Positions 36,636-50,236 of a stretch of 64,000 nt of DNA are shown here, in pieces (within the stretch, counting starts at the first letter, position 1; each line of letters begins with the position of its first letter). The notes under the pieces were generated by a model, which was not told where the DNA came from, searched no databases, and saw only the letters and a program-made list of their open reading frames with translations. Made by a program: the position numbers and the translations under genes. Source of the DNA: a virus; the IMG/VR virus record IMGVR_UViG_3300019776_000961, positions 62,001 to 126,000 of that record; one strand, written 5' to 3'.

Positions 36636-37394
36636 TTAAACTGTAAAAAAGCTTCCGTCTATATCAATATTAATATCTTCAATCGCTGTGAATCTAGCTT
36701 CAAATTCTCGATGTGTTTTAATGAATTCGAGAATCTTATTAATTAAAGTAGATGGTAATTTTTCTACAATAGCGATTCTATCTGATGCTTTCGTCTGAAA
36801 GAAATTAATTGTAGTATTATTTTCACCGTTAGTAATTTCTATATTACTAATGAACTTAGTAAGTTCATATACAAATAATTCACTAATAACTGTTTTAAAA
36901 TCATCTGTACTTGTACCAGTCTTGTTAAGAGCGAATGTATTTAGCTCATTGTCAGCTATAAGCGTCGGGGCAGTAACTGTTACTCTTATATTATTATCTT
37001 CATAGACTGCATTGAGAGGCTGTAATGCTGTGTCTATTGAAGGGATGTCGTTAAGTTTGTTTGTTAAATCGTATGTCTTATCATTAACCTTGTATTGACT
37101 ATCAAGACTACGGGCTCGAAAAGCTAAGGCAATAGCTGACCGGTCAAAAGTATAGAGTAATTCTGTACTGACGGTATCGAGAATATTTTCCTTTATTACG
37201 CTAAAGAAGAATGTATTAAAAGAAAGCTTAGTAAGACTTTCGTCGATAGACGACTTAAGAAGTCCTTTTTGTTGCTTTAAATTTAAAGGTTTGAATTTGA
37301 CTGTACGCTTTAAGGATGGCACAAATACGTCAAAACCATTCTCTGTATTGAGTGTATCTAATTGCTTTAGTACATCGCTGATATTACTGCTCAT
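36636..37394 (-). CDS. Baseplate hub assembly protein gp26-like
   Basis: 252 residues. N-terminal VFVPSLKRTVKFKPLNLKQQKGLLKS is the conserved opening of gp26/gp51-type hub assembly proteins of T4-like phages, followed by helices and a NIEITNGENNTTIN beta portion. In T4, gp26 and gp51 help build the central hub. The next upstream gene has the same opening, so this pair looks duplicated. No late box; likely read through from the tube/sheath operon. Confidence 0.6.
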   Translation of the reverse strand: MSSNISDVLKQLDTLNTENGFDVFVPSLKRTVKFKPLNLKQQKGLLKSSIDESLTKLSFNTFFFSVIKENILDTVSTELLYTFDRSAIALAFRARSLDSQYKVNDKTYDLTNKLNDIPSIDTALQPLNAVYEDNNIRVTVTAPTLIADNELNTFALNKTGTSTDDFKTVISELFVYELTKFISNIEITNGENNTTINFFQTKASDRIAIVEKLPSTLINKILEFIKTHREFEARFTAIEDINIDIDGSFFTV

Positions 37395-37420
37395 ATTATT
37401 ATATATACACTATATATCGG

Positions 37421-38308
37421 TTAGCCAGTTCTTGGTGCAAGTGGATTAGGATTTCTTGCTGATTGTTTTTCTGCTTTTTCTTTTGCTGCTTGCTCCTCTT
37501 TGTATAGATTAATATAGATCGTCAATTCGGCTAATGTAGAGTTGGATATCAATTCATACGGTATTTTAAGCTTAGATGAAAGGTAGTACTCTAATTCATA
37601 CATTGAATTCAAATCGCGCTTAAAACATAGCTTAAGAAACTCAAGTACAGAATTGCTAAACAAATCGGTATTTATTTTAATATTTTTATTGTCGTCAGTA
37701 GATGAGAATGTAACCGATAGAAGTGTTAGCTCACTTATCTTATCATTTATTTTATTAATATGTTCATTAGCATCTTTAAAAACTGCTGCAGGTAGTAGTT
37801 CTATTAACTCATTTTTCTTATCTGTAACATCAACGTCTTTAATACGAATTTTTCGTATTGTGGATATAATAGCGTCTTCTCTGTTAGTAAAGAAAAATTC
37901 ATCAGGTATTCCGTATGTAATCTTAATGTCATTAAGGTAAGTCACTGTTATACTGTTAAGCTCTGTAAATAAACTCAGCTTATCAATTTTATCAATTACA
38001 TCAAGTATATTAAAAGATAAATTAATTGAATTCTCTGTCTCTGGATGCTTTACAACTAGTTCGAGAAATGGCGATACACAGACTGCTCGTATGGTTAATA
38101 ATATTATTAGTTTGTCTAAAAACGTAATATCACTAATACTATTTTTACAACAACTAGTTATTATTTCATTAAATGCAGTGATTATATACTCATCATTGTT
38201 ATTGAGTATAAGTTTAGCAAGCTGCTTGTAACTACTAAAAGGTACTTCAGTTAACCTAACGGTCTTATTTAAACTCGGCAAAAAAGCGGAGTATAAAAAT
38301 TTCTGCAT
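37421..38308 (-). CDS. gp26/gp51-like hub assembly protein, second copy
   Basis: 295 residues. The opening FLPSLNKTVRLTEVPFSSYKQLAKLI parallels the VPSLKRTVKFKPL of the neighbouring gene (PSL-K/N-K/R-TV core). The middle is Ile/Leu/Asn-rich with a TYGIPDEFFF segment; the C-terminus is helical with a Lys/Ala/Glu tail. It could be an assembly chaperone for the tape measure or hub, since it lies just upstream of both. No late box. Paralogy with the next gene is inferred from the opening motif only. Confidence 0.55.
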   Translation of the reverse strand: MQKFLYSAFLPSLNKTVRLTEVPFSSYKQLAKLILNNNDEYIITAFNEIITSCCKNSISDITFLDKLIILLTIRAVCVSPFLELVVKHPETENSINLSFNILDVIDKIDKLSLFTELNSITVTYLNDIKITYGIPDEFFFTNREDAIISTIRKIRIKDVDVTDKKNELIELLPAAVFKDANEHINKINDKISELTLLSVTFSSTDDNKNIKINTDLFSNSVLEFLKLCFKRDLNSMYELEYYLSSKLKIPYELISNSTLAELTIYINLYKEEQAAKEKAEKQSARNPNPLAPRTG

Positions 38309-38322
38309 GTATATAATTATGC

Positions 38323-39231
38323 TTAACCCCCGACAGGGCTATATGGAGGACCAAAGGTACCGACACCAGAAGTAATATTAGGGAACCCGCTCTTGACGTA
38401 ATTTGATATAATTGCTCCAATAGGTAGATACAAGTTGTCAGCAACAGTATAATTAGAGTAAGTCCAACGAGTAGGTATTGTGGCAAGATGCTCTTCTGTA
38501 TACTCAAGTGTTTGTTCACCTACGTTAAAAGGAGCACAATTAAAGAATTGCCATACTTTTCTAGGTATCATTGAAGTGTTTTGCAATGATCTTGTATATT
38601 GAAGAATAGAAATATTAGTTTTAATATTTTTTGGATCTTTTACAGCTATTAAATTTGTAGCGGAATCACCAGGTCTCGATGCAAGACCATAGTGTGCTGT
38701 AAGAATTGACCACGGTCTAATGACAGAATCAACAAACGATGTATTTGTTTCTCTAAATGTTATTGCGAGTGTTGGTGGTTCAGTAGATCTACCATTGGCA
38801 ACAACACCAGGTAGAAAGCCTCTATTGTTAGCAACAGTGACAGAACCAATATCTAATTGTTCAGATGGAATCGTGACTTCGTGTGCAAATAAGCAACCTA
38901 TTACACTTTGAAATGGATAAGATCCAAGAGCTGCAACGGCTGATGAAATATCAAATCCGTGCTTACTTCCGTCGGTGCGCTCAAGAGATTGAAGAATATT
39001 TGAATTAAGAGCGGACGGAAAGCGTTGAATGACGATTATCCATTGAGTCGTCATGGGGATCGTGGTTAACCACGAATCCATTTGTGTTAAAAAATACTCC
39101 TGTGTGCTTACGAGAGGCTTACCGGGGATATTGAATCCGATAAGCTGTGTTATCTGAGGAGCAAACGGCGGGTTTGTACCGTTTAATAACCCGCCGATGT
39201 TTGTTAGTGCCTCTGTAAATGGATCATTCAC
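38323..39231 (-). CDS. Tube initiator / baseplate cap gp54-like
   Basis: 302 residues. The start is GTG at 39231: a late box sits exactly 5 nt upstream and translation reads MNDPFTEAL. The tube fold appears from residue ~70: RTDGSKHGFDISSAV, EPPTLAITFRETNTSFVDSVIRPWSIL, and a final IPTRWTYSNYTVADN segment. This is the pattern of gp54 and gp19 relatives. T4 gp54 is 320 residues and starts tube and sheath growth on the baseplate. It lies directly after gp19 as a tube-related gene should. Confidence 0.65.
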   Translation of the reverse strand: MNDPFTEALTNIGGLLNGTNPPFAPQITQLIGFNIPGKPLVSTQEYFLTQMDSWLTTIPMTTQWIIVIQRFPSALNSNILQSLERTDGSKHGFDISSAVAALGSYPFQSVIGCLFAHEVTIPSEQLDIGSVTVANNRGFLPGVVANGRSTEPPTLAITFRETNTSFVDSVIRPWSILTAHYGLASRPGDSATNLIAVKDPKNIKTNISILQYTRSLQNTSMIPRKVWQFFNCAPFNVGEQTLEYTEEHLATIPTRWTYSNYTVADNLYLPIGAIISNYVKSGFPNITSGVGTFGPPYSPVGG

Positions 39232-39236
39232 CTAAT

Positions 39237-39242
39237 TATTTA
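39237..39242 (-). promoter_or_regulatory. Late-promoter-like box TAAATA, 5 nt before GTG 39231
   Basis: ATTAAATA-ATTAG-GTG on the minus strand. The same 5 nt spacing is kept with a GTG start, which helps fix the start. Confidence 0.6.
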
Positions 39243-39258
39243 ATTAAGTGAATGTTAT

Positions 39259-39825
39259 TTAAGCGCTTCTTGTAAAGTAGTGGTAAGAAACGGTAGCAGT
39301 AAACTCTACTGTCTCACCTGTACCGCCTGCAATGTTGTATGTTAATGCACCAACGTTACGTGGTGATACACCGACAAGATTGTATTGTGCTATAGCATTC
39401 ATCTGGTTATCAAGCTGTACGAGACTAATAACTGATGTAGGACCGGGTGTAAAATAATAACCTGTACTATTCTGGTCGTTAAATACGTAACGTGACCAGT
39501 CTTCAAACTTCTGTCTAATCTGCGACTTAGCATCGCAATAGAATGTTAACGTATAAGCATTACTATTTGGATATACAGCATTACCTGGGACATTGAAATT
39601 AAGACCCATATATGGTACAGGTACGTTTGTAATTTCACGCTCTGGTAGTGCAGCACTCTTTACATAAACGAGATCTGATGTCTCACTAAATGTAAGAGGC
39701 TGACCGGCAGCATTGGTTACACCCGGAGTACTAATTGAAAGTACTCGGAAGTTGTAATCACGTGCGAAATCGCGCGCTTGTGCTGCTGTGTAGAAGTCTT
39801 GAATTAATTGATTTACGGATGCCAT
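39259..39825 (-). CDS. gp19: Tail tube protein gp19
   Basis: 188 residues. Conserved tube features: an N-terminal helix (DFYTAAQARDFARDYNFRVLSI), SAALPEREITNVPVPYMGLNFNVPG (the loop and strand of the tube core), YTLTFYCDAKSQIRQKFEDWSRYVFN and a closing VEFTATVSYHYF strand. T4 gp19 is 163 residues. It polymerises as hexamer rings inside the sheath. Immediately downstream of the sheath gene, as in T4. Late box 5 nt before the ATG. Confidence 0.9.
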   Translation of the reverse strand: MASVNQLIQDFYTAAQARDFARDYNFRVLSISTPGVTNAAGQPLTFSETSDLVYVKSAALPEREITNVPVPYMGLNFNVPGNAVYPNSNAYTLTFYCDAKSQIRQKFEDWSRYVFNDQNSTGYYFTPGPTSVISLVQLDNQMNAIAQYNLVGVSPRNVGALTYNIAGGTGETVEFTATVSYHYFTRSA

Positions 39826-39830
39826 AAAAT

Positions 39831-39836
39831 TATTTA
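39831..39836 (-). promoter_or_regulatory. Late-promoter-like box CTAAATA, 5 nt before gp19 ATG
   Basis: GACTAAATA-ATTTT-ATG on the minus strand. Confidence 0.6.
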
Positions 39837-39840
39837 GTCG

Positions 39841-42357
39841 TTATGCTACAAGTTCAGTGAAGTTCTGATTTGTTCTAGTTGCGTAGAAGTTCACCAAGAT
39901 GAACTCTGCAGATCTTACTGGCTTGAGGTAGATATCAACTACAAGTGAGTTATCATCAATTACAGCAGGTGTATTATTACGTTCATCACAAATGATGAGG
40001 TAGTCATATAGACCCTGTGTATTCTTAGCGACATCAAAGATCGGTGTAAGAACGTTGATGATGTTTGTTCTTGTGAAGAGTGTGTTTGGCTCGAATACGT
40101 AGTAACGTACTGTCTGCTTAACTTGTGTCTCAAGTGTGAGGAACAAGCGACGTACATTAATACGATCGAATGCACTTGGAAGCTTCTGTGCTGTCTTCTG
40201 ACCGAAGATTACGAAACCTTCGTTCGGGAAATATGCAACAGGGTTGAGTGAGATCGAATAGAGTTGATCGCGTTCCTTTTGATTTGCATAGTAACCGAGA
40301 TCTGTTACGTTGTTTATGACACCGCGTGTGAATCCTGCTGGTGCGTACCAAGGGTAGAAGTTTGAATCTGTATTACCCATTGCTGCAGCCGCAAAGCCAG
40401 AGAACGGAACCCAGACCTGACTATTTGATACTGAGTCATAAACCTGTGCAATATTTGCATATGCGCAAGCATAACTTGTATTGATAGTTGAGAATTGATT
40501 ACGTAGCGGCCAGTAGATGTTCTGTGAGAAACTCTTGTTTGGATCGGCTAGTGTTTTGAGATTGTTACCCTCTACGAAGATATTGGTAATAGGATCTGCA
40601 ATAAAGAGGTGATCTCTACGTGTTGCACTTGCAAATGTAACAAACGGCTGAACTGCAGCAAGATAGTTTGCTACCATTGCAGGTTGTGATCCGATTTGCT
40701 GTGCTGTAAGAGCGTATAGCTGACTGTCGAAAGGTACAGTATCATCAAAATAACCTGATGTTGCAGGATTTAAGGAATTGACGAAAATTGTACCTAGACC
40801 AGCTTCTGTTACAATCGAAAGCGGATAGATATCCGAATTTGAAATGTAGTTAAGCATGTTTGTAACCTTGCCGGGCACGTCGCCAATTACCTTTGTTGAG
40901 AGATTTGTCTGTGCATATACACCAAGCGGCATTAACTTACTTGTAGTACCAAGTGAATTCATTAGACCTGCTACAACACCTGATGGTGCACCGATACGTG
41001 TTTCATACGAACCAGCGACATATTGGAAGTTACCGAAGTCAGCAGAAAGCGATACGTTATATGCAGTAACCGTGGCTATTGCTGTTTTATTAAGAACGGT
41101 GTTAAGACTGATACCGTTAGGATATAAAGCTGAAAGTGTATTTGAGTTAGTAAATACACCAGCAGAAACTGCAGATGTACATGTACCTGTTGTAATACTG
41201 TCAGACTCACCGGTTATTGGAAGATCTTTATCAGAACTTAAGAAACGTACTGTCTTTGTAGGATTACCGGAAAGATCAAGCCATGAAGTACCAACATTAC
41301 GGTTTGAAATATATGGGTTAACGAGTGAGACAATATTTTGTGAAGTATTATCTACATTTTCTAAGAAGAAGCTTACTGGCTGACCACCTGTTGTAACACT
41401 CTGCTGTCTGTAATAGTCAAGTGATGCAACATAACTTTCCTGAAGAACATAATCAAGTGCAATTGTATCAGGTGAGAAGACAGATTGACGTAGCTTAAAG
41501 AGACCTAATGAAATTGTATCATTCCACTTTGGTGTAGATGTTGTGAATGTCGGAATATTTTCGAGTACCTCAGAAACACTGCCAGCTGGTGATGTTGGTG
41601 TTGCAGATAACGGGAAGTTGAGGCGTGCATTCGGTATAGAGATGTATGATGTGCCGTTTGTTGTTGAACCACCAGCATATTGAGCTGTTGCAGTACTGTT
41701 GACTGTGAATACAGCGTTTATATCGTTATAATTGATAGCAGGGTTATGGTTGGTATTATCGATAACACCGAGATACAGACCTTCAAAACGTTGATTAATG
41801 GTGGACTGTGAATTGTTGAGAACGATGAGACCAGCTTGACCGAGCTGTGAAACATCGGTAAATGTTGTAATACCCTGTGTATCGGTCTGCCATGTAAAGG
41901 CATTGCCCGATTGAATAGCGAGGTACTGATTTTGTGAAAGTGTAATATGGGTTGGCTGACCAAAGAAAATTGTACTTGCAGATAGTGCAGTAGCAGAGAG
42001 ACTTGTTGATGTTAGGCCGTTAGTATAAGAAACAACAGGATAAACAAGGGCACTGTACTGATTTGATGTACCAATACCAAGAGCACTGCCATAAGCTAAT
42101 CTAAAAACTTGAATATTTGAATTCGATGTAAAGGCTGCCTTTACAGTATAGTAAAAATATCTTTCTGCAGCATTAGTTGGCTGACCGAAAATTTGTTCAA
42201 ATTCAGAAAGACTACTTACCTGTATAGGTTCAGCAACGGGACCCTTAGGAGCGAAGCCTGGAATAAAAATTGTTGTAGGAGGTGCACCAACTGCTCTTAA
42301 TGAAAGATCAACCTCGTTGATCTGTACACCTGGACTCTGAATTGTACGATTTGCCAT
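39841..42357 (-). CDS. gp18: Contractile tail sheath protein gp18
   Basis: 838 residues. N-terminal SPGVQINEVDLSLRAVGAPPTTIFIPGFAPKGP (shown in part) with the conserved PGV..E.D start of sheath proteins; FEQIFGQPTNAAERYFYYTVKAAF; the C-terminal domain GYYANQKERDQLYSISLNPVAYFPNEGFVIFGQKTA and RLFLTLETQVKQTVRYYVFEPN is the part that links neighbouring subunits. Longer than T4 gp18 (659), mainly through inserted surface domains (about 110-330). Full TATAAATA 6 nt before ATG. It contracts to drive the tube through the host envelope. Confidence 0.93.
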   Translation of the reverse strand: MANRTIQSPGVQINEVDLSLRAVGAPPTTIFIPGFAPKGPVAEPIQVSSLSEFEQIFGQPTNAAERYFYYTVKAAFTSNSNIQVFRLAYGSALGIGTSNQYSALVYPVVSYTNGLTSTSLSATALSASTIFFGQPTHITLSQNQYLAIQSGNAFTWQTDTQGITTFTDVSQLGQAGLIVLNNSQSTINQRFEGLYLGVIDNTNHNPAINYNDINAVFTVNSTATAQYAGGSTTNGTSYISIPNARLNFPLSATPTSPAGSVSEVLENIPTFTTSTPKWNDTISLGLFKLRQSVFSPDTIALDYVLQESYVASLDYYRQQSVTTGGQPVSFFLENVDNTSQNIVSLVNPYISNRNVGTSWLDLSGNPTKTVRFLSSDKDLPITGESDSITTGTCTSAVSAGVFTNSNTLSALYPNGISLNTVLNKTAIATVTAYNVSLSADFGNFQYVAGSYETRIGAPSGVVAGLMNSLGTTSKLMPLGVYAQTNLSTKVIGDVPGKVTNMLNYISNSDIYPLSIVTEAGLGTIFVNSLNPATSGYFDDTVPFDSQLYALTAQQIGSQPAMVANYLAAVQPFVTFASATRRDHLFIADPITNIFVEGNNLKTLADPNKSFSQNIYWPLRNQFSTINTSYACAYANIAQVYDSVSNSQVWVPFSGFAAAAMGNTDSNFYPWYAPAGFTRGVINNVTDLGYYANQKERDQLYSISLNPVAYFPNEGFVIFGQKTAQKLPSAFDRINVRRLFLTLETQVKQTVRYYVFEPNTLFTRTNIINVLTPIFDVAKNTQGLYDYLIICDERNNTPAVIDDNSLVVDIYLKPVRSAEFILVNFYATRTNQNFTELVA

Positions 42358-42363
42358 ATAAAG

Positions 42364-42371
42364 TATTTATA
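42364..42371 (-). promoter_or_regulatory. T4-type late promoter box TATAAATA, 6 nt before gp18 ATG
   Basis: Perfect T4 late consensus on the minus strand, then CTTTAT and the start codon of the sheath gene. Confidence 0.65.
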
Positions 42372-42396
42372 TTTTTTTGATTGAACTTTTTAAAGT

Positions 42397-42996
42397 TTAG
42401 AAACTTTCTATATCAGAAGTCACAAGAGACACTAATAATTGCGAGTAGCTATATGTAAAAGATGATTCTATCTCAGTACCGTCCCTGTAACTGTACTCTA
42501 TGCCACCGAGAGACGTAGGAAATGCGTCAGTGTACTTAAATTCTACTACTCTCTTATTGTATTCATCGAGTGCAAAAATAGAAATATTAGTTCTATATTC
42601 GAAGTTTGATGACTTACCTGATGTTATATTATTGGCGTCATAAACACCTGTTTTATCATGATTAAGCAGATTAAGCCAGCTGTAAATAGTCCAATAATTA
42701 TTGAATCTATTATCAACAGTAAAACTTACAGTATTAGGTGCAAAGACGTTACGGGTATGGCTTGAAGCAGCAAGAGTCTGACCAGAATATCTTATATCAA
42801 CAGGAGGTATTTCAATAGACGGCACTATTGCACCGAAAACAGAAAACTTAATACTATCAGGTATGACGGTATTATTGTTACGGTTGAAATTTGATTCATG
42901 GTTTTTGAAACATTTCGGTAGATCAAAAGCCATGAGAAATTTATCTTTTCTCGACTTATTGAATGGACTCTGTGTATAGACTGCAGCGTTTGACAT
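42397..42996 (-). CDS. Tail-tube-fold protein between terminase and sheath
   Basis: 199 residues. TVSFTVDNRFNNYWTIYSWLNLL and the final SSFTYSYSQLLVSLV parallel the gp19 strands (TLTFYCDAKSQIRQKFEDW and the final beta strand), so it is a tube-fold paralogue. The segment VPSIEIPPVDIRYSGQTLAASSH resembles the inner-loop region of tube proteins. Candidates are a tube variant or a tail terminator (gp3/gp15 role). Its ATG overlaps the terminase stop (TAATG), so it is probably made from the terminase message. T4 has no gene at this place. Confidence 0.6.
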   Translation of the reverse strand: MSNAAVYTQSPFNKSRKDKFLMAFDLPKCFKNHESNFNRNNNTVIPDSIKFSVFGAIVPSIEIPPVDIRYSGQTLAASSHTRNVFAPNTVSFTVDNRFNNYWTIYSWLNLLNHDKTGVYDANNITSGKSSNFEYRTNISIFALDEYNKRVVEFKYTDAFPTSLGGIEYSYRDGTEIESSFTYSYSQLLVSLVTSDIESF

Positions 42997-44549
42997 TAGT
43001 ATTGGGAGTTGTTAAAGAATTGCCACCCTTGTGATTCAAGATCCTTAACTTCAGAAAACTCATTTGAGTCATCAGCTGGAAATAAAATCGGCAAGGGCAT
43101 TGATGCATCTCCATTCGATCTTTCGTTAGAGTAAATCGAAGTTGGATTTACAAAATATTTAATGCCATAATCGAGTGGTCTTAACTTTAATGGCTTTTTA
43201 TTATCATCATACTGTTCAATTTCAAAGTATTTTTCAACTATTTCATCATCAAGAATCATAAGAGCCCATATAAGACTCATGACTCTATCATCCCAGTTAC
43301 TTGCACCAGGTCTTGCAGCCCAAGTACCGTTTGGGTATCTAACAAAGTTTTTGAGTTCGTTTAATGTATTTAAATTACGTATCTTCAAGCATTTTAACTC
43401 ATTAACCCAGTATCTCATGTTAGTTACACCTTTATATTTGGTGTTTGTGTGTGCAATAACACCTGGTTTATTAAAGGCTAATTTACCTGCTTTTGCACCA
43501 TAAGAAACAATATTTTCATATTGATGTGTTTGCTTAAGTTGGTCGACAACTTGTGCACCACAGTTATTACGCTCAATTAATGCAAGTGGATTACCCCAGT
43601 GTTGAAGAATCTCGTAAAGTTTTGTAGTGAAATTAATAGGACTAATATTTCTATTATGATACTCAGCTACTTGTTTTATGCTTCTTAAATCGGTTATATC
43701 AAGAATCTGTACTACAGAAGCAGCCTCACCGACACCTTCACTTATATCAACTCCTGCTACATATATTTTTTCTTGATTTGGTTCTTCCCATAAGAGATAG
43801 TGTCCTTCATCAAAAACAAATGTAGGTTCAGCACACTCGGTCTTTAGTTCATCAAAAAGATGTTCATTTACGGCACTTTCACCTGTCTCAAGAAACACGT
43901 TTCCAAACTCTTGATCAAACGCATCCCTACTTCCGAGCTCTCTTATAGTATTCTTCTTCCATTTTTCATCTCTACCAGGGACCTCCCACCAGTCGACCTT
44001 TTCAGCATGCCATCCATTATGTTTCTCCGGATCAGGCTCAAGTGCACCAGTATAAAGTTCGTGAAAGAGGTTTCCGGTGCCGTTAGGTGTTGATGCGACA
44101 AAGATTTTTGATTTTTTAGATGATGAAATAATAGGGTAAACAGATTTCCAGAAATCTTGTACCATATGATTATCAATAAATGCCAACTCATCAAGAATAA
44201 GGCATTGATGACTCAATATATCATTTGCAAAATATCTATGATTATCCTTGACCTCTAGCAGTTCATAGACAGGTTCATTGTTTGTATATACATCAACAGT
44301 GTTAACTTTAATACCTGAAAACAAAACATCACCTTTTTTTATATCCTTTGCGTATACCCACTCGTACGTATTGTTTTTTATAATTTTATGTTTAGAGGTA
44401 CATACTAATTCCTTACCATTCGATAGAGTGAATTTAATTTTATTCTCATTTGTACCTACGATAATACCCTTAAAGTCCTTAAATCCCTCATCAGTCAATA
44501 CTTCGAAGGTATTATTTTTAAAAATTTTATAATTTGTAATATCAGCCAT
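42996..44549 (-). CDS. terL: Terminase large subunit, C-terminal half with IntC of a split intein
   Basis: 517 residues: 115 of intein followed by 402 of terminase. The intein part has block B (KELVCTSKHKII, TxxH) and block F/G (VYELLEVKDNHRYFANDILSHQ), then Cys+1. The exteins continue LILDELAFID (Walker B, catalytic Glu), FVASTPNGTGNLF (coupling motif) and the RNase H-type nuclease with Asp in AGVDISEGVG, Glu in LIERNNCGAQVV and Asp-Asp in NWDDRVMSL. The last intein residue is Gln instead of the usual Asn. ATG 44549 overlaps the endonuclease stop (ATGGCTGA). After trans-splicing to the upstream half it should give a 578-residue packaging motor; T4 gp17 has 610. Confidence 0.88.
   Translation of the reverse strand: MADITNYKIFKNNTFEVLTDEGFKDFKGIIVGTNENKIKFTLSNGKELVCTSKHKIIKNNTYEWVYAKDIKKGDVLFSGIKVNTVDVYTNNEPVYELLEVKDNHRYFANDILSHQCLILDELAFIDNHMVQDFWKSVYPIISSSKKSKIFVASTPNGTGNLFHELYTGALEPDPEKHNGWHAEKVDWWEVPGRDEKWKKNTIRELGSRDAFDQEFGNVFLETGESAVNEHLFDELKTECAEPTFVFDEGHYLLWEEPNQEKIYVAGVDISEGVGEAASVVQILDITDLRSIKQVAEYHNRNISPINFTTKLYEILQHWGNPLALIERNNCGAQVVDQLKQTHQYENIVSYGAKAGKLAFNKPGVIAHTNTKYKGVTNMRYWVNELKCLKIRNLNTLNELKNFVRYPNGTWAARPGASNWDDRVMSLIWALMILDDEIVEKYFEIEQYDDNKKPLKLRPLDYGIKYFVNPTSIYSNERSNGDASMPLPILFPADDSNEFSEVKDLESQGWQFFNNSQY
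44205..44549 (-). other. Split intein, C-terminal part (IntC, 115 residues)
   Basis: Runs from the ATG to the Gln before Cys+1 (TGC at 44202-44204). Contains blocks B, F and G; block A is encoded at the other gene. The split lies after block A, the atypical layout with short IntN and long IntC, as in the AceL-TerL intein rather than the DnaE type. Confidence 0.85.
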
Positions 44550-45264
44550 TTTGTTTCTTTATTGCTCTTGTACCTGTGCCGCGGAACCAACCGAGCGGTA
44601 TACATGTACTAGAATTCACACGCTTTATTTCTTTAGTTACTGGATTATGTATATAGATACATCCTATCCCGCTGCGCAGTTTTTTAACTTCATGTGAAGC
44701 ATTAAGCGCTGCATCTGACATCTTTTTTCTTGCATGTTCTGAACGCTTCATCCCTGTGTGGGTAGTAGCGGTTTTACGGATCTTATTCGGATTTTTGTTT
44801 TGTGGATTTACTCTTGAACGTCCACGAAGTGATTCAGATATTTTTTTAGCTCTTTCTTCTGTATATACTTCTTTAAGCATTTTTTGCTTCCATTCGATAT
44901 TCTGCCATTGTTTCTTCTTAAAGGATGAAAAATCTTTACGATGTTGATCCGACCATTCACATCTACCGTACCCACCTTCACGTAAATTATATGTATCTGG
45001 TCTATTAATATACTCTTTAGTTACCAGACGACGCTCTTCTTCAAGAGCTTCAATATAGGTATTAAATTGAGAAAGTATTTCTTTTTTAAACGCGTCTCTA
45101 CCATATTTTTGTATAGCGTGTTTAATAATCTTACCTGAGCCCATGTAACCATCATCCAAATTATCTGTTCTATGTACACCTATATATTCCATTCTAGTTA
45201 CCATATTTGTTAATCGGTAAATATAATTATATGTTCTGTTTATATTAGGATTATTAGGGCCCAT
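44542..45264 (-). CDS. GIY-YIG homing endonuclease with NUMOD3 motifs
   Basis: 240 residues from ATG 45264; an in-frame TTG upstream is less likely. The GIY-YIG module is seen as YNYIYRLTNMVTRMEYIGVHRT (strand pair with Tyr..Tyr-Ile-Gly), GYMGSGKIIKHAIQKYGRDAFKKEIL and the Glu-containing EALEEERRLV helix, then TYNLREGGYG. Downstream repeats ISESLRGRSRVNP and GMKRSEHARKKMSDAAL are NUMOD3-type DNA-binding motifs. Such enzymes cut intein- or intron-free alleles to spread their element. It is placed between the two halves of the terminase gene, 48 bases after the first half and overlapping the second by 8, so all three are probably on one transcript. Confidence 0.9.
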   Translation of the reverse strand: MGPNNPNINRTYNYIYRLTNMVTRMEYIGVHRTDNLDDGYMGSGKIIKHAIQKYGRDAFKKEILSQFNTYIEALEEERRLVTKEYINRPDTYNLREGGYGRCEWSDQHRKDFSSFKKKQWQNIEWKQKMLKEVYTEERAKKISESLRGRSRVNPQNKNPNKIRKTATTHTGMKRSEHARKKMSDAALNASHEVKKLRSGIGCIYIHNPVTKEIKRVNSSTCIPLGWFRGTGTRAIKKQNG

Positions 45265-45312
45265 ATTAATACTTATGTATAACAATTAATTCTGGAGGAA
45301 TTTGCATTACTT

Positions 45313-45972
45313 TTATTCATCTACAATTTCTAAAAACATTTCACCGTTATCTTTGAGTATCTCTGTAAGATCGTGCATACTAATTTGAAATTCTAATAAT
45401 GTTTTTTTGTCTCTCAGTGTCACCGTTGTGTTACCACCCACGCAATTACAACTATCACCACGACCAGCATCACTACTTGTAGTGCTAATACCTATACTTG
45501 AACCATTGGCAAGTGACATTGATGTCTTGCCGTATTCTAAAACACCAGGCTTAAGGTAGTTTGGTAGCTTCTCATAAGCCATACGCACACGCTTAAAAAT
45601 ATTAATAGCGGTTTGCTCTTTGTTAGCGACAATTAATATACGCTGATCTTCTTGAAAGCATGCGACCCAAAGTGCATATATCGTCATTAATGTTGTTTTA
45701 CCAATCTGACGTGAAGCTAATAAACATACGAATCTATTGTCTCTTAAGCTTCTTAAAATCTTTTTCTGGAAAGAATGTAATCTAATTTTTATCTTACCTT
45801 CATCAAGGTTTGTAATGAAGAAGAAGTTTTCAGCAAAGTATAAAATGTTTTTTGTACATTTTTTAATGTCTTCAACCCACTCCGGGTTATCAATATAATT
45901 GAATGTCGCGTCCTGTGTAGGGAGTGACTCATTACCCAGATAATAACCTGTTTTCTGCTTTTTAGTAGGCAT
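45313..45972 (-). CDS. terL: Terminase large subunit, N-terminal half with IntN of a split intein
   Basis: 219 residues: 176 of terminase and 43 of intein. The ATPase part has FQKKILRSLRDNRFVCLLASRQIGKTT (Walker A, residues 86-94), the RILIVANKEQTA strand and SIGISTTSSDAGRGDSCN, matching T4 gp17 STSPDAVRGNSFA. Then comes the intein start CVGGNTTVTLRDKK (block A, Cys1 at residue 177). The stop follows after MFLEIVDE. It lacks Walker B and the nuclease, which are on the downstream gene, so it cannot work alone. Upstream lies a divergent late gene. Confidence 0.88.
   Translation of the reverse strand: MPTKKQKTGYYLGNESLPTQDATFNYIDNPEWVEDIKKCTKNILYFAENFFFITNLDEGKIKIRLHSFQKKILRSLRDNRFVCLLASRQIGKTTLMTIYALWVACFQEDQRILIVANKEQTAINIFKRVRMAYEKLPNYLKPGVLEYGKTSMSLANGSSIGISTTSSDAGRGDSCNCVGGNTTVTLRDKKTLLEFQISMHDLTEILKDNGEMFLEIVDE
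45316..45444 (-). other. Split intein, N-terminal part (IntN, 43 residues)
   Basis: Cys1 codon at 45444-45442 follows RGDSCN. Block A only (CVGGNTTVTL), then a short Leu/Ile-rich segment and the stop codon. Short IntN of this size is typical of atypically split inteins. Confidence 0.83.
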
Positions 45973-45978
45973 TTATAA

Positions 45979-45984
45979 TAAATA
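45979..45984 (+). promoter_or_regulatory. Late-promoter-like box TAAATA, 7 nt before ATG 45992
   Basis: AATAAATA then CTTATGC and ATG. It lies in the 19-base gap between the two divergent genes. Confidence 0.45.
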
Positions 45985-45991
45985 CTTATGC

Positions 45992-46816
45992 ATGAACTTA
46001 ACACGTACAATGAATGAACTCGGTGATTTATATCTCGAGAAGATGACAATTCCTAATGATACCTTTGAAGTACAGACAGAGAAAAAGGTAAAGCTAGCAA
46101 AAGGCGACAAGAAAGCTTTTGTTGGTAAGAAGTCAGGTCCTGAAGATGCTGATGGCTTTAAAAAAGACATCATTGATCCGAAAACAGCAAAAGCTGACAA
46201 TTATTATGAGCCTAAGAAATTCTCACAAAATAATGAAAAAACAGAAACACAGAAGATAAATACTTTTATGAACAAATCTATTTTTGACAGACTTTACGAA
46301 GAGGTAATGCTCGAAAACGACATGCATCTTCCCAATCAAGACGATTCAACAGACGCTGAAGCTCTCGGTCTTCCAGGTGAAGCCGGTGGTGCAGAGGTTG
46401 ATGGAGAAGAGGTAACAATTACACTTTCACGTGATCTCGCAGAAAAGCTTCATGAAGTTCTCATGGGTGTTCTCGAAGCACACGACGATTCAGCAGCAGC
46501 TGATGAAGACCTCGATGTTGAGGGTACAGAAGATGAAGAGTGTGATGAAGATAATCAGACTTTCGGAGAGGCTACAGATATCGAGCCACTTTCAGATGAG
46601 CACGGTAAGAAGCTCATCGCTAAGGGCAGCCAGAAGGTCCCTGGTACAGTAACATCAGAAGTAGATAGCAAAGAAGGTAAGGGCGATACACAGGGTATCG
46701 TTAACGACGGTAAGCCACAGCCTCTTAAGAAGGTAGTAGGTGGCGGTGTTCCATCAAACAAGGTTGCAGGTAATGCAAGTAAGGTTGGTAAGACACTCTT
46801 CGGTGCAGCTAAGTAA
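45992..46816 (+). CDS. Acidic late protein; likely two proteins in one frame
   Basis: 274 residues. The first 92 (MNELGDLYLEKMTIPNDTFEV onward, if begun at the second Met 46010) form a basic, polar module with VKLAKGDKKAFVGKKSG. Residue 93 (ATG 46268) starts a second module MNKSIFDRLYEEVMLENDMH, followed by a very acidic low-complexity part and VTITLSRDLAEKLHEVLMGVLEAHDD. A complete late box TAAATA-CTTTT-ATG precedes 46268, inside the coding sequence. Both modules open with a hydrophobic-x-Glu leader. It may make a long fusion and a short 182-residue form. Likely capsid-internal or scaffold, by inference. A strong terminator follows. Confidence 0.65.
   Translation: MNLTRTMNELGDLYLEKMTIPNDTFEVQTEKKVKLAKGDKKAFVGKKSGPEDADGFKKDIIDPKTAKADNYYEPKKFSQNNEKTETQKINTFMNKSIFDRLYEEVMLENDMHLPNQDDSTDAEALGLPGEAGGAEVDGEEVTITLSRDLAEKLHEVLMGVLEAHDDSAAADEDLDVEGTEDEECDEDNQTFGEATDIEPLSDEHGKKLIAKGSQKVPGTVTSEVDSKEGKGDTQGIVNDGKPQPLKKVVGGGVPSNKVAGNASKVGKTLFGAAK
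46257..46262 (+). promoter_or_regulatory. Internal late-promoter-like box TAAATA, 5 nt before in-frame ATG 46268
   Basis: TAAATA-CTTTT-ATG within the coding sequence of the 45992-46816 frame. Spacing is the same as at true gene starts, so a separate late transcript is likely. Confidence 0.5.
46268..46816 (+). CDS. Possible nested gene: in-frame shorter form (182 residues)
   Basis: In-frame product of the same sequence starting at MNKSIFDRLYEEV. It carries its own late box and a leader-like N-terminus with Leu-Tyr-Glu-Glu at residues 9-12. Residues ~50-75 form a short folded segment (EVTITLSRDLAEKLHEVLMGVLEA); the rest is acidic and then Gly/Lys/Val-rich. Listed apart because the upstream part may be a different, fused gene. 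Confidence 0.45.
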   Translation: MNKSIFDRLYEEVMLENDMHLPNQDDSTDAEALGLPGEAGGAEVDGEEVTITLSRDLAEKLHEVLMGVLEAHDDSAAADEDLDVEGTEDEECDEDNQTFGEATDIEPLSDEHGKKLIAKGSQKVPGTVTSEVDSKEGKGDTQGIVNDGKPQPLKKVVGGGVPSNKVAGNASKVGKTLFGAAK

Positions 46817-46839: not shown

Positions 46840-46869
46840 AAGGGCCTTCGCAAGAAGGCCCTTTTTTTT
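46840..46869 (+). terminator. Rho-independent terminator
   Basis: A perfect 10-bp stem AAGGGCCTTC / GAAGGCCCTT with a GCAA (GNRA) loop, followed by a run of T. The strongest terminator in the window, directly after the acidic late gene. Confidence 0.9.
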
Positions 46870-46872
46870 GCT

Positions 46873-46878
46873 TAAATA
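46873..46878 (+). promoter_or_regulatory. Late-promoter-like box TAAATA, 5 nt before GTG 46884
   Basis: CTTAAATA-ATATT-GTG. It restarts transcription right after the terminator. Confidence 0.6.
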
Positions 46879-46883
46879 ATATT

Positions 46884-47222
46884 GTGAATAGCTTTAAAAG
46901 TCATTTTAATCTTAACAATAACAAAGGTGATATAGTCAAAAAGCGTAGACACATGGGATTAGTTCCCGATGTTTCAACACATACAAAAACAGGTGGTAAA
47001 ACAGTACCTGAAATGTGGAAAGCTAAGCACTCTAATCAAAAAGTAAAATCATTACTCAATAATGGTAGCGGTCACTTCACGCTTAATGATGCAGAATTAA
47101 AGCAAATAGAAAAAGAGTTCCCTCCTGTTAAATATGATCCACATCATCCTAAGAAGCTCGGTAATACTGGCATTACGCTTTATTATGATGAAACATCACA
47201 AGCGCCAGCTATAAAGATATAA
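46884..47222 (+). CDS. Unknown late protein
   Basis: 112 residues from a GTG set by the late box 5 nt upstream. Basic N-terminal half (GDIVKKRRHMGLVPDVSTHTKTGGKTVPEMWKA, shown cut), then KQIEKEFPPVKYDPHHPKKLG and a short strand ending. His and Lys rich. It precedes the neck gene by one base and is probably co-expressed with it. A head-neck accessory role is possible but unproven. Confidence 0.55.
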   Translation: MNSFKSHFNLNNNKGDIVKKRRHMGLVPDVSTHTKTGGKTVPEMWKAKHSNQKVKSLLNNGSGHFTLNDAELKQIEKEFPPVKYDPHHPKKLGNTGITLYYDETSQAPAIKI

Positions 47223-47223
47223 T

Positions 47224-47952
47224 ATGGATGTAAAGGATTTCTACACAGGTGGTGGTACTACAGGTATTTACCCGCAGACATTTCAAGATAATGAATGCTT
47301 TAGAATAACAGATAAAGCAAATAACGGCGCCGAGCGCTTGCTTCAATCTAATTACTGGAGAGAGCAAATAAACCTATATGGTCAAAAAGCTAACTATTAT
47401 GTTAATAACACGACATTATCTGGCTCGGATATGCTCTATGGTGAGCATCCAACTCAACGATTTTCACCTCCACAAGCTATAACAGTGGCTCTTAATCTTA
47501 ATGAAAATGCTTTAATGCTTAGTAAATATGGCTTGTTATCAGAAGATGAGGTTACAGCTTTTGTACATATAAGTGCATTTTATGAAACATTTGGACCCGG
47601 TGCAGAGCCAAAATCAGGTGATGTATTTCAATTATCTGAATACGGTAATGATAGACCGGGTGATAGAAACGGTAAAATGTTTGAGATAACAGAACGTCTG
47701 GACGAAGATGCAGCGACTATTAATGTATTAGCTGGTCACTATGTATGGTTAATTAAGGCTAAGCGTTTTGAATACTCCTTTGAGCCAGGTATTCCACAAG
47801 AAGCGGGTAATAATCAAGTTTTTGACGATACACAAAATACAACGGTATCAGGTGCTAATAAACCGTACACAAATAGCGTTGATATAGATTCAAAACAGAT
47901 CTTTGATTATAGTCTTACTGACTATTCAAATGTCTACGGTGGGTACTATTAA
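47224..47952 (+). CDS. Head-to-tail neck protein, gp14-like
   Basis: 242 residues. The T4 gp14-type pattern is visible: SGSDMLYGEHPTQRF (LxGE), ITVALNLNENALMLSKYGLLSEDEVTAFV (lsKFGL..DE), EPKSGDVFQLSEYG (the P-x-GD strand), GKMFEITERLDED and YVWLIKAKRFEYSFEPGI (the phi-x-YS ending). In T4, gp13 and gp14 form the collar that joins head and tail. Length 242 against 256 in T4. It starts with no late box, one base after the preceding late gene. Confidence 0.68.
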   Translation: MDVKDFYTGGGTTGIYPQTFQDNECFRITDKANNGAERLLQSNYWREQINLYGQKANYYVNNTTLSGSDMLYGEHPTQRFSPPQAITVALNLNENALMLSKYGLLSEDEVTAFVHISAFYETFGPGAEPKSGDVFQLSEYGNDRPGDRNGKMFEITERLDEDAATINVLAGHYVWLIKAKRFEYSFEPGIPQEAGNNQVFDDTQNTTVSGANKPYTNSVDIDSKQIFDYSLTDYSNVYGGYY

Positions 47953-49828: not shown

Positions 49829-50236
49829 ATGAATTTGTTTAGCAAAAAGTTTAAGTATGTGCTCGAAGCTGATGATACCGAGCAGCAGCAGCCAGCGCCA
49901 GAAACAGATCGCGATGCAATGGCTCAACAGCTTGATACAGCAAAGCCAGAAGATTTCGATGTACAGCAACAGTCAGAAAGACAGAAGCAAGTTGATCATA
50001 ATAAGCTCGCTCAAATACAGCAACTAAACGAATGGATTAAGCAAATTGATGCGTTTATTGAATTTTTAAATGGTACAACACAAGACTCTGTGCAGACAAA
50101 ATTACACGTAGCTCCCTGTGATACGCTTTTCGTTGATATTGCAAGAAGTGAGAAAAAGAAAATCTCAAGACTTGCAGCAGAACTCAGTTCCTTGAGTGAG
50201 TCCTTTAAGGGTTATCTAATTTCTGCTAACGACTAA
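49829..50236 (+). CDS. Late protein with capsid-targeting-like N-terminus
   Basis: 135 residues from ATG 49829. N-terminus MNLFSKKFKYVLE-ADD, with Val-Leu-Glu at 11-13. A Gln/Asp/Glu/Pro-rich linker follows (20-60), then a coiled-coil-like region KLAQIQQLNEWIKQIDAFIEFL and a helical C-terminus KKISRLAAELSSLSESFKGYL. It resembles small core/internal proteins by layout. Isolated plus-strand late gene. Its end overlaps the converging primase gene by 11 bases. Confidence 0.55.
   Translation: MNLFSKKFKYVLEADDTEQQQPAPETDRDAMAQQLDTAKPEDFDVQQQSERQKQVDHNKLAQIQQLNEWIKQIDAFIEFLNGTTQDSVQTKLHVAPCDTLFVDIARSEKKKISRLAAELSSLSESFKGYLISAND

Follow-up and report, generated by a model that had tools for sequence, protein, structure and literature searches.

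A conserved late-promoter box and in-frame start inside a late gene of uncultured T4-like phages point to a long and a short protein with a common C-terminus

Two proposed nested start points in one late gene

Judged from its sequence, one late gene found across a large group of uncultured T4-like phages very probably encodes two proteins, a long one and a short one with the same C-terminus. The gene was studied in a 64,000-nucleotide stretch of DNA (the window) taken from the 193,220-bp record of an uncultured virus (G000), whose T4-like assignment is based on its tail sheath, large terminase, gp23, gp21 and gp55-like late sigma. In all likelihood, the locus represents a monocistronic late gene in which two start points are nested, and where an outer and an inner promoter would give rise to a long and a short protein (Table 1). 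From features of the DNA itself, i.e., an in-frame ATG, the promoter-ATG spacing, conservation at the DNA level, a terminator, a separate promoter of the next gene and a late sigma in the genome, we infer the existence of both RNAs and both proteins.

The inner ATG represents codon 93 of the 274-codon ORF, in the same frame, and follows TAAATA and CTTTT, giving a spacing of exactly N5. This arrangement, claimed in an earlier note on this DNA, was confirmed from the sequence, and its conservation in relatives is far above chance. The outer start box, which was found in 74 of 83 relatives, has a spacer of 7, unlike the 5 at the inner start.

It is proposed that the gp55-like late sigma of the phage would read both the outer box and the inner TAAATA, and that both transcripts would stop at one terminator, making them 3'-coterminal. 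The outer transcript would yield the 274-aa protein, while the inner transcript would begin on or beside the A of the inner ATG (and be leaderless) and yield the 182-aa C-terminal part. The short form would thereby be made in excess over the long form, or independently of it.

Table 1. Features of the nested late gene and its surroundings (window coordinates)
Feature	Position	Strand	Description
Long ORF (N-module + C-module)	45992..46816	+	274 aa; homologous long ORF in all intact relatives
Short in-frame ORF (C-module)	46268..46816	+	182 aa; begins MNKSIFDRLYEEV
Inner late-promoter box TAAATA	46257..46262	+	Within coding sequence, codons ATA AAT A..; predicted +1 at 46268
Outer late-promoter box TAAATA	45979..45984	+	Spacer 7 to ATG 45992; predicted +1 at 45990
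Intrinsic terminator	46840..46871	+	10-bp stem, 4-nt loop, T run, directly after stop codon; fold -19.5 kcal/mol
Late start of next gene, TAAATA-N5-GTG	46873..46886	+	Next gene 46884-47222, 112 aa; similar element in 114/129 relatives
Large terminase gp17, N-terminal piece	45313..45972	-	Divergent neighbour; gp17 divergent in 120/125 relatives
Head-closure Hc2 (gp14-like) gene	47224..47952	+	phrog_679, E 1.3e-12; downstream in 111/124 relatives

Conservation of the inner box at the DNA level

Relatives were collected in four IMG/VR scans, the last two with queries holding little or nothing before the inner Met, and these yielded 139 distinct relatives. The scan patterns were degenerate peptide back-translations outside the box, so that the box codons should not be biased. 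A long upstream open frame followed by the inner box and ATG is present in 135 of the 139 distinct relatives, with an inner spacer of exactly 5 nt in 122 of the 139. The inner box and ATG also occur in three further relatives that the motif filter had passed over.

A codon alignment of 57 clustered divergent relatives, comprising 275 columns, is near saturation at synonymous sites, with a median ratio of observed to expected synonymous diversity of 0.92, as against ratios of 0.00, 0.00, 0.09 and 0.07 at the four box and spacer codons. Near-zero values were found only at the box codons and at two nearby sites. Within the box, Ile is always encoded by ATA (54/54), Leu by CTA (3/3), Asn by AAT (57/57) and Thr by ACT (15/15), and the constant use of CTA in Ile-to-Leu replacements keeps TAAATA intact. 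In contrast, a nearby Ile (in SIFDKLY) is mostly ATT, while the Leu after it (FDxLY) uses all six codons. Such invariant box codons amid near-saturated synonymous sites indicate selection on the DNA and not on the peptide alone, and the alignment argues that the inner TAAATA-N5-ATG is not a chance occurrence. The second start is thus conserved, in the same frame and equipped with a putative promoter of its own, as defines a nested in-frame gene. The proposal of a second late promoter within the gene, put forward in the earlier note, gains support from the DNA-level conservation of the box and the exact promoter-ATG spacing.

Two further codons in this region are constant: a Lys located 10 codons before the inner Met (46238-46240), which is part of an A-run, is AAA in 56/56 relatives, and the Phe of FDxLY (46283-46285) is TTT in 57/57. 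Other late starts are without such an upstream A-run. Further apparent nested boxes in the fetched loci were set aside, as they looked like spurious overlapping frames.

The late start signature of the phage

In this T4-like phage, TAAATA-N5-ATG serves as a true start signature. The window contains 11 copies where 2.7 would be expected, and none of 100 shuffles attained 11, while the N4 and N6 versions (1 and 5 copies) are not enriched. Over the 193-kb genome 28 copies were counted, as compared to 3 for the reversed control pattern. Among 716 box-ATG pairs of at most 40 nt in related contigs, a count that includes near-duplicate loci, spacing 5 accounts for 275 and spacing 6 for 122. The box also precedes gp21 and the tail sheath gene, and box starts are found in 11 of 22 genes of structural blocks versus 2 of 22 in replication/metabolism blocks (p 0.007).

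The inner start conforms to this pattern, its logo being in agreement with the generic late-start logo of these phages, WTAAATANTTWW-ATG. Both starts carry TAAATA (logo WTAAATA), matching the T4-type late promoter consensus (TATAAATA, or an NTAAATA box at -13 to -6). The inner hexamer is the same as the late box of T4 and cyanophages, C variant included; the late box of Aeh1 in its C variant is CTAAATA (PMC1524935) and that of S-PM2 is NATAAATA (PMC2984593). A gp55-like late sigma is encoded at G000:130624-130935 (E 1.3e-17; 42% identity over ~113 aa to the HTVC008M late sigma). No match to gp33 was found in the phage, in a search that was uninformative for this protein.

The T4 late box occupies -13 to -6 (PMC1524935), and the N5 spacer would therefore make the A of the inner ATG the +1 position. 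In T4, most late boxes lie 24-28 nt before the ATG, and a ribosome site separates the two. Unlike this, late starts in the window and in relatives have TAAATA 5-7 nt before ATG or GTG, without a Shine-Dalgarno sequence. Such sites precede 0/18 box starts and 2/47 other starts of the phage, and are nearly absent from the window, as is known for Bacteroidota. With a box some 5 nt before the ATG and 0/18 Shine-Dalgarno sites, the late mRNAs of this lineage look leaderless, and they are predicted to be leaderless or near-leaderless. In some relatives the inner spacer is 8, 11, 14 or 20 nt, so that not every relative's inner transcript would be leaderless.

An even chance is given to a broader proposal, whereby the late programme would be largely leaderless, with the box and not a Shine-Dalgarno sequence fixing the start codon, and the nested gene would be achieved by embedding a box-plus-ATG of ~14 bp in coding sequence, setting the ratio of a long to a short head protein.

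Alternative readings of the inner start

The inner TAAATA-N5-ATG might instead act as a translation-initiation signal on the long mRNA, two proteins being made by internal initiation from one transcript. The scarcity of Shine-Dalgarno sites is in keeping with this, since AT-rich start regions must then matter, as does the preference of Flavobacterium starts for A at -3, -6 and -14 to -11, where U at -3 is disfavoured (PMC6847099). However, T predominates in the conserved spacer and also stands at -3 (0.82), contrary to the A favoured there, and internal initiation is rendered improbable also by the identity of the hexamer to the late box, C variant included, and by the concentration of box starts in structural blocks. 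A real promoter that serves downstream head genes, with the in-frame ATG being incidental, is less probable again. While this phage does have late promoters located in the 3' ends of preceding genes, and the neck gene lies downstream, a strong terminator intervenes (70 of 129 relatives have a comparable hairpin after the stop codon, where 0.1 would be expected), the next gene starts from a TAAATA-N5-GTG of its own, and most relatives keep a constant 5 nt between box and ATG. The inner promoter is thus not needed by downstream genes, and the short protein is the most likely purpose of the inner box. The same two features, terminator and separate box, support the claim of a short product with the same C-terminus. 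It is hardly credible that the box is a by-product of conserved residues at the joint (Ile-Asn-Asn/Thr): I/L-N-N/T before the Met is indeed conserved at the protein level, but the synonymous codons are invariant there while those of other conserved residues, such as the FDxLY Leu, vary freely, Leu in place of Ile is always CTA, and no ATT/ATC or AAC was found at the box codons with the same peptide in 57 clusters.

The earlier note had viewed the gene as a fusion of two neighbouring genes that retained the promoter of the second. Two leader-like starts and two promoters would suit a recent fusion, which nevertheless appears unlikely, as every intact relative has one continuous ORF; relatives with two separate genes, which had been suggested as a check, were not encountered, and no ORF with the N-module but without the C-module was present in the fetched loci. 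The single-ORF state is common to very divergent relatives, and any fusion must therefore be ancient. The supposed difference in composition of the N-module holds only loosely, both parts being of low complexity and predicted to be mostly disordered.

A clade without the inner promoter

Relatives with the continuous ORF but no inner box had been named as telling against a nested gene. One small clade (L023/L134-L141) is of this kind, as an exception and not the rule: its members keep the long ORF and have neither Met nor box at the joint, which implies that the short form is not universally needed. An apparent nested box in L023 was dismissed as a chance TAAATA close to the C-terminus. The N-part of L137, the member tested, was not recognised by the N-module profile, and gp17 was not found adjoining the long ORF in L134 and L141, the two members tested; the clade seems to reside in another genomic context. 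Its state may represent either loss or the ancestral condition. L023 and L134-L141 also carry a separate conserved gene of 158-168 aa just upstream (MRSKDQILLENAYSS...), which follows a late box and opens with a leader-like segment.

Genome context

In the window, gp17 is split into two ORFs (42996-45972, minus strand) whose facing ends, from translations read by eye, look like intein halves, and a GIY-YIG-like endonuclease ORF (44542-45264) lies between the pieces, a possible split-intein 'fractured gene'. Beyond these, three tail-tube-like proteins (phrog_45) are encoded at 38323-42996 (minus strand) and two baseplate-hub-like paralogues (phrog_150) at 36636-38308. A search for the small terminase gp16 using PF11053 gave no match in G000, the control being without a match anywhere as well. 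At 163-168 kb of the genome are located gp21, a gp22-like scaffold gene and gp23, and between the first two a 443-aa Gly/Ala-rich protein with glycine-zipper-like stretches is encoded (L291:2111-3442; genome ~163.7-165.0 kb).

Possible function of the two products

Pfam and PHROGs gave no assignment of function to the family, with only single weak matches among 64 members. A tblastn search of 50,697 phage records with three family members returned no match, and bacterial and archaeal genome contigs contained no family member. The protein is acidic and, by prediction, mostly disordered. An AlphaFold2 model based on 64 relatives places helices at residues 3-17 and 97-107, where the two products begin; it is otherwise of low confidence (mean pLDDT 55.5). 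The leader-like segment noted earlier at both starts is thereby borne out.

The T4 capsid-targeting sequence (CTS) is 10 residues long, is processed at residues 8 and 10 and has the motif L/I-x-E (PMC9026906). Each product would open with a short helix resembling this sequence, with a gp21-type L/I-x-E site in many relatives. In the N-leader, L/I-x-E ending at residues 12-24 is found in 43 of 64 relatives, as compared to a shuffled mean of 12 and maximum of 23, although the window protein's own N-leader is without it. For the C-leader the count at residues 12-24 equals that of shuffled sequences (14 versus 12.3); most relatives have L-Y-E at residue 11, which is lost in a marine group (LYN). 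Given a capsid-targeting-like helix on each, the two products could both reach the prohead core, and cleavage of the long form at the internal L/I-x-E site would be conceivable. A role of both products as internal head or prohead-core proteins is the likeliest function, though at somewhat less than even odds. No homology to gp67, gp68, IPs or gp22 was detected by PHROG or Pfam, and identity as the gp22 scaffold was rejected on account of the position of gp21, the gp22-like scaffold gene and gp23 elsewhere in the genome. A small gene at 49829-50236 (plus strand) with TAAATA-N5-ATG has a similar leader, MNLFSKKFKYVLEADD, relatives carrying MSLFEQKFRVVIEADE, and is another candidate for a capsid-targeted protein.

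Comparison with known systems

Nested in-frame genes are a known principle, with precedents in T4 gene 17 and CMV UL80. T4 gene 17 (gp17', gp17''), together with nested starts in genes 21 and 49, gives shorter in-frame products with the same C-terminus, and the T4 record speaks of 'internal transcription and in-frame translation of gene 17'. Like the present gene, it is a phage late gene in a T4-like virus, but the protein differs, the one described here being an unassigned acidic protein adjoining gp17. Furthermore, the three nested starts of gene 17 are without TAAATA close upstream; in the present gene, by contrast, box and ATG are conserved together as a unit. The lambda C/Nu3 pair is a nested in-frame head-assembly gene encoding protease and scaffold with a common C-terminus, in which the inner product has an internal translation start and not its own promoter. 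In contrast to Nu3, the C-module is not a known scaffold, and the phage has a separate gp22-like scaffold gene.

In CMV UL80/UL80.5, 3'-coterminal transcripts encode in-frame overlapping assembly proteins, probably setting their stoichiometry, according to the account in PMC9732275, which cites Welch 1991. Only the layout is shared, by analogy and not homology; the present gene has no protease domain and a putative phage late-sigma promoter. The internal or prohead-core proteins of T4 (IPIII, gp67, gp68) resemble the present gene in its predicted late expression, short targeting-like N-terminal helix and acidic, probably disordered body, and L/I-x-E occurs in many relatives of the present gene. 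The gene lies outside the head-gene cluster, and no sequence homology to these proteins was found.

Significance

No prior description of this nested gene was found in the open-access literature. What is new, as far as sequence data reveal, is the protein family, the wide conservation at the DNA level and the putative leaderless box-ATG unit. The gene appears to hold an internal phage promoter within a coding frame by DNA-level selection, across a wide set of uncultured T4-like viruses and in a protein family with no entry in Pfam or PHROGs. Gene callers would log one product for what is probably a two-product gene. Leaderless late mRNA is pointed to as the rule in these phages, whose genes would then have to be called differently, and the box-ATG unit would provide a clean test system for start selection by the late sigma.
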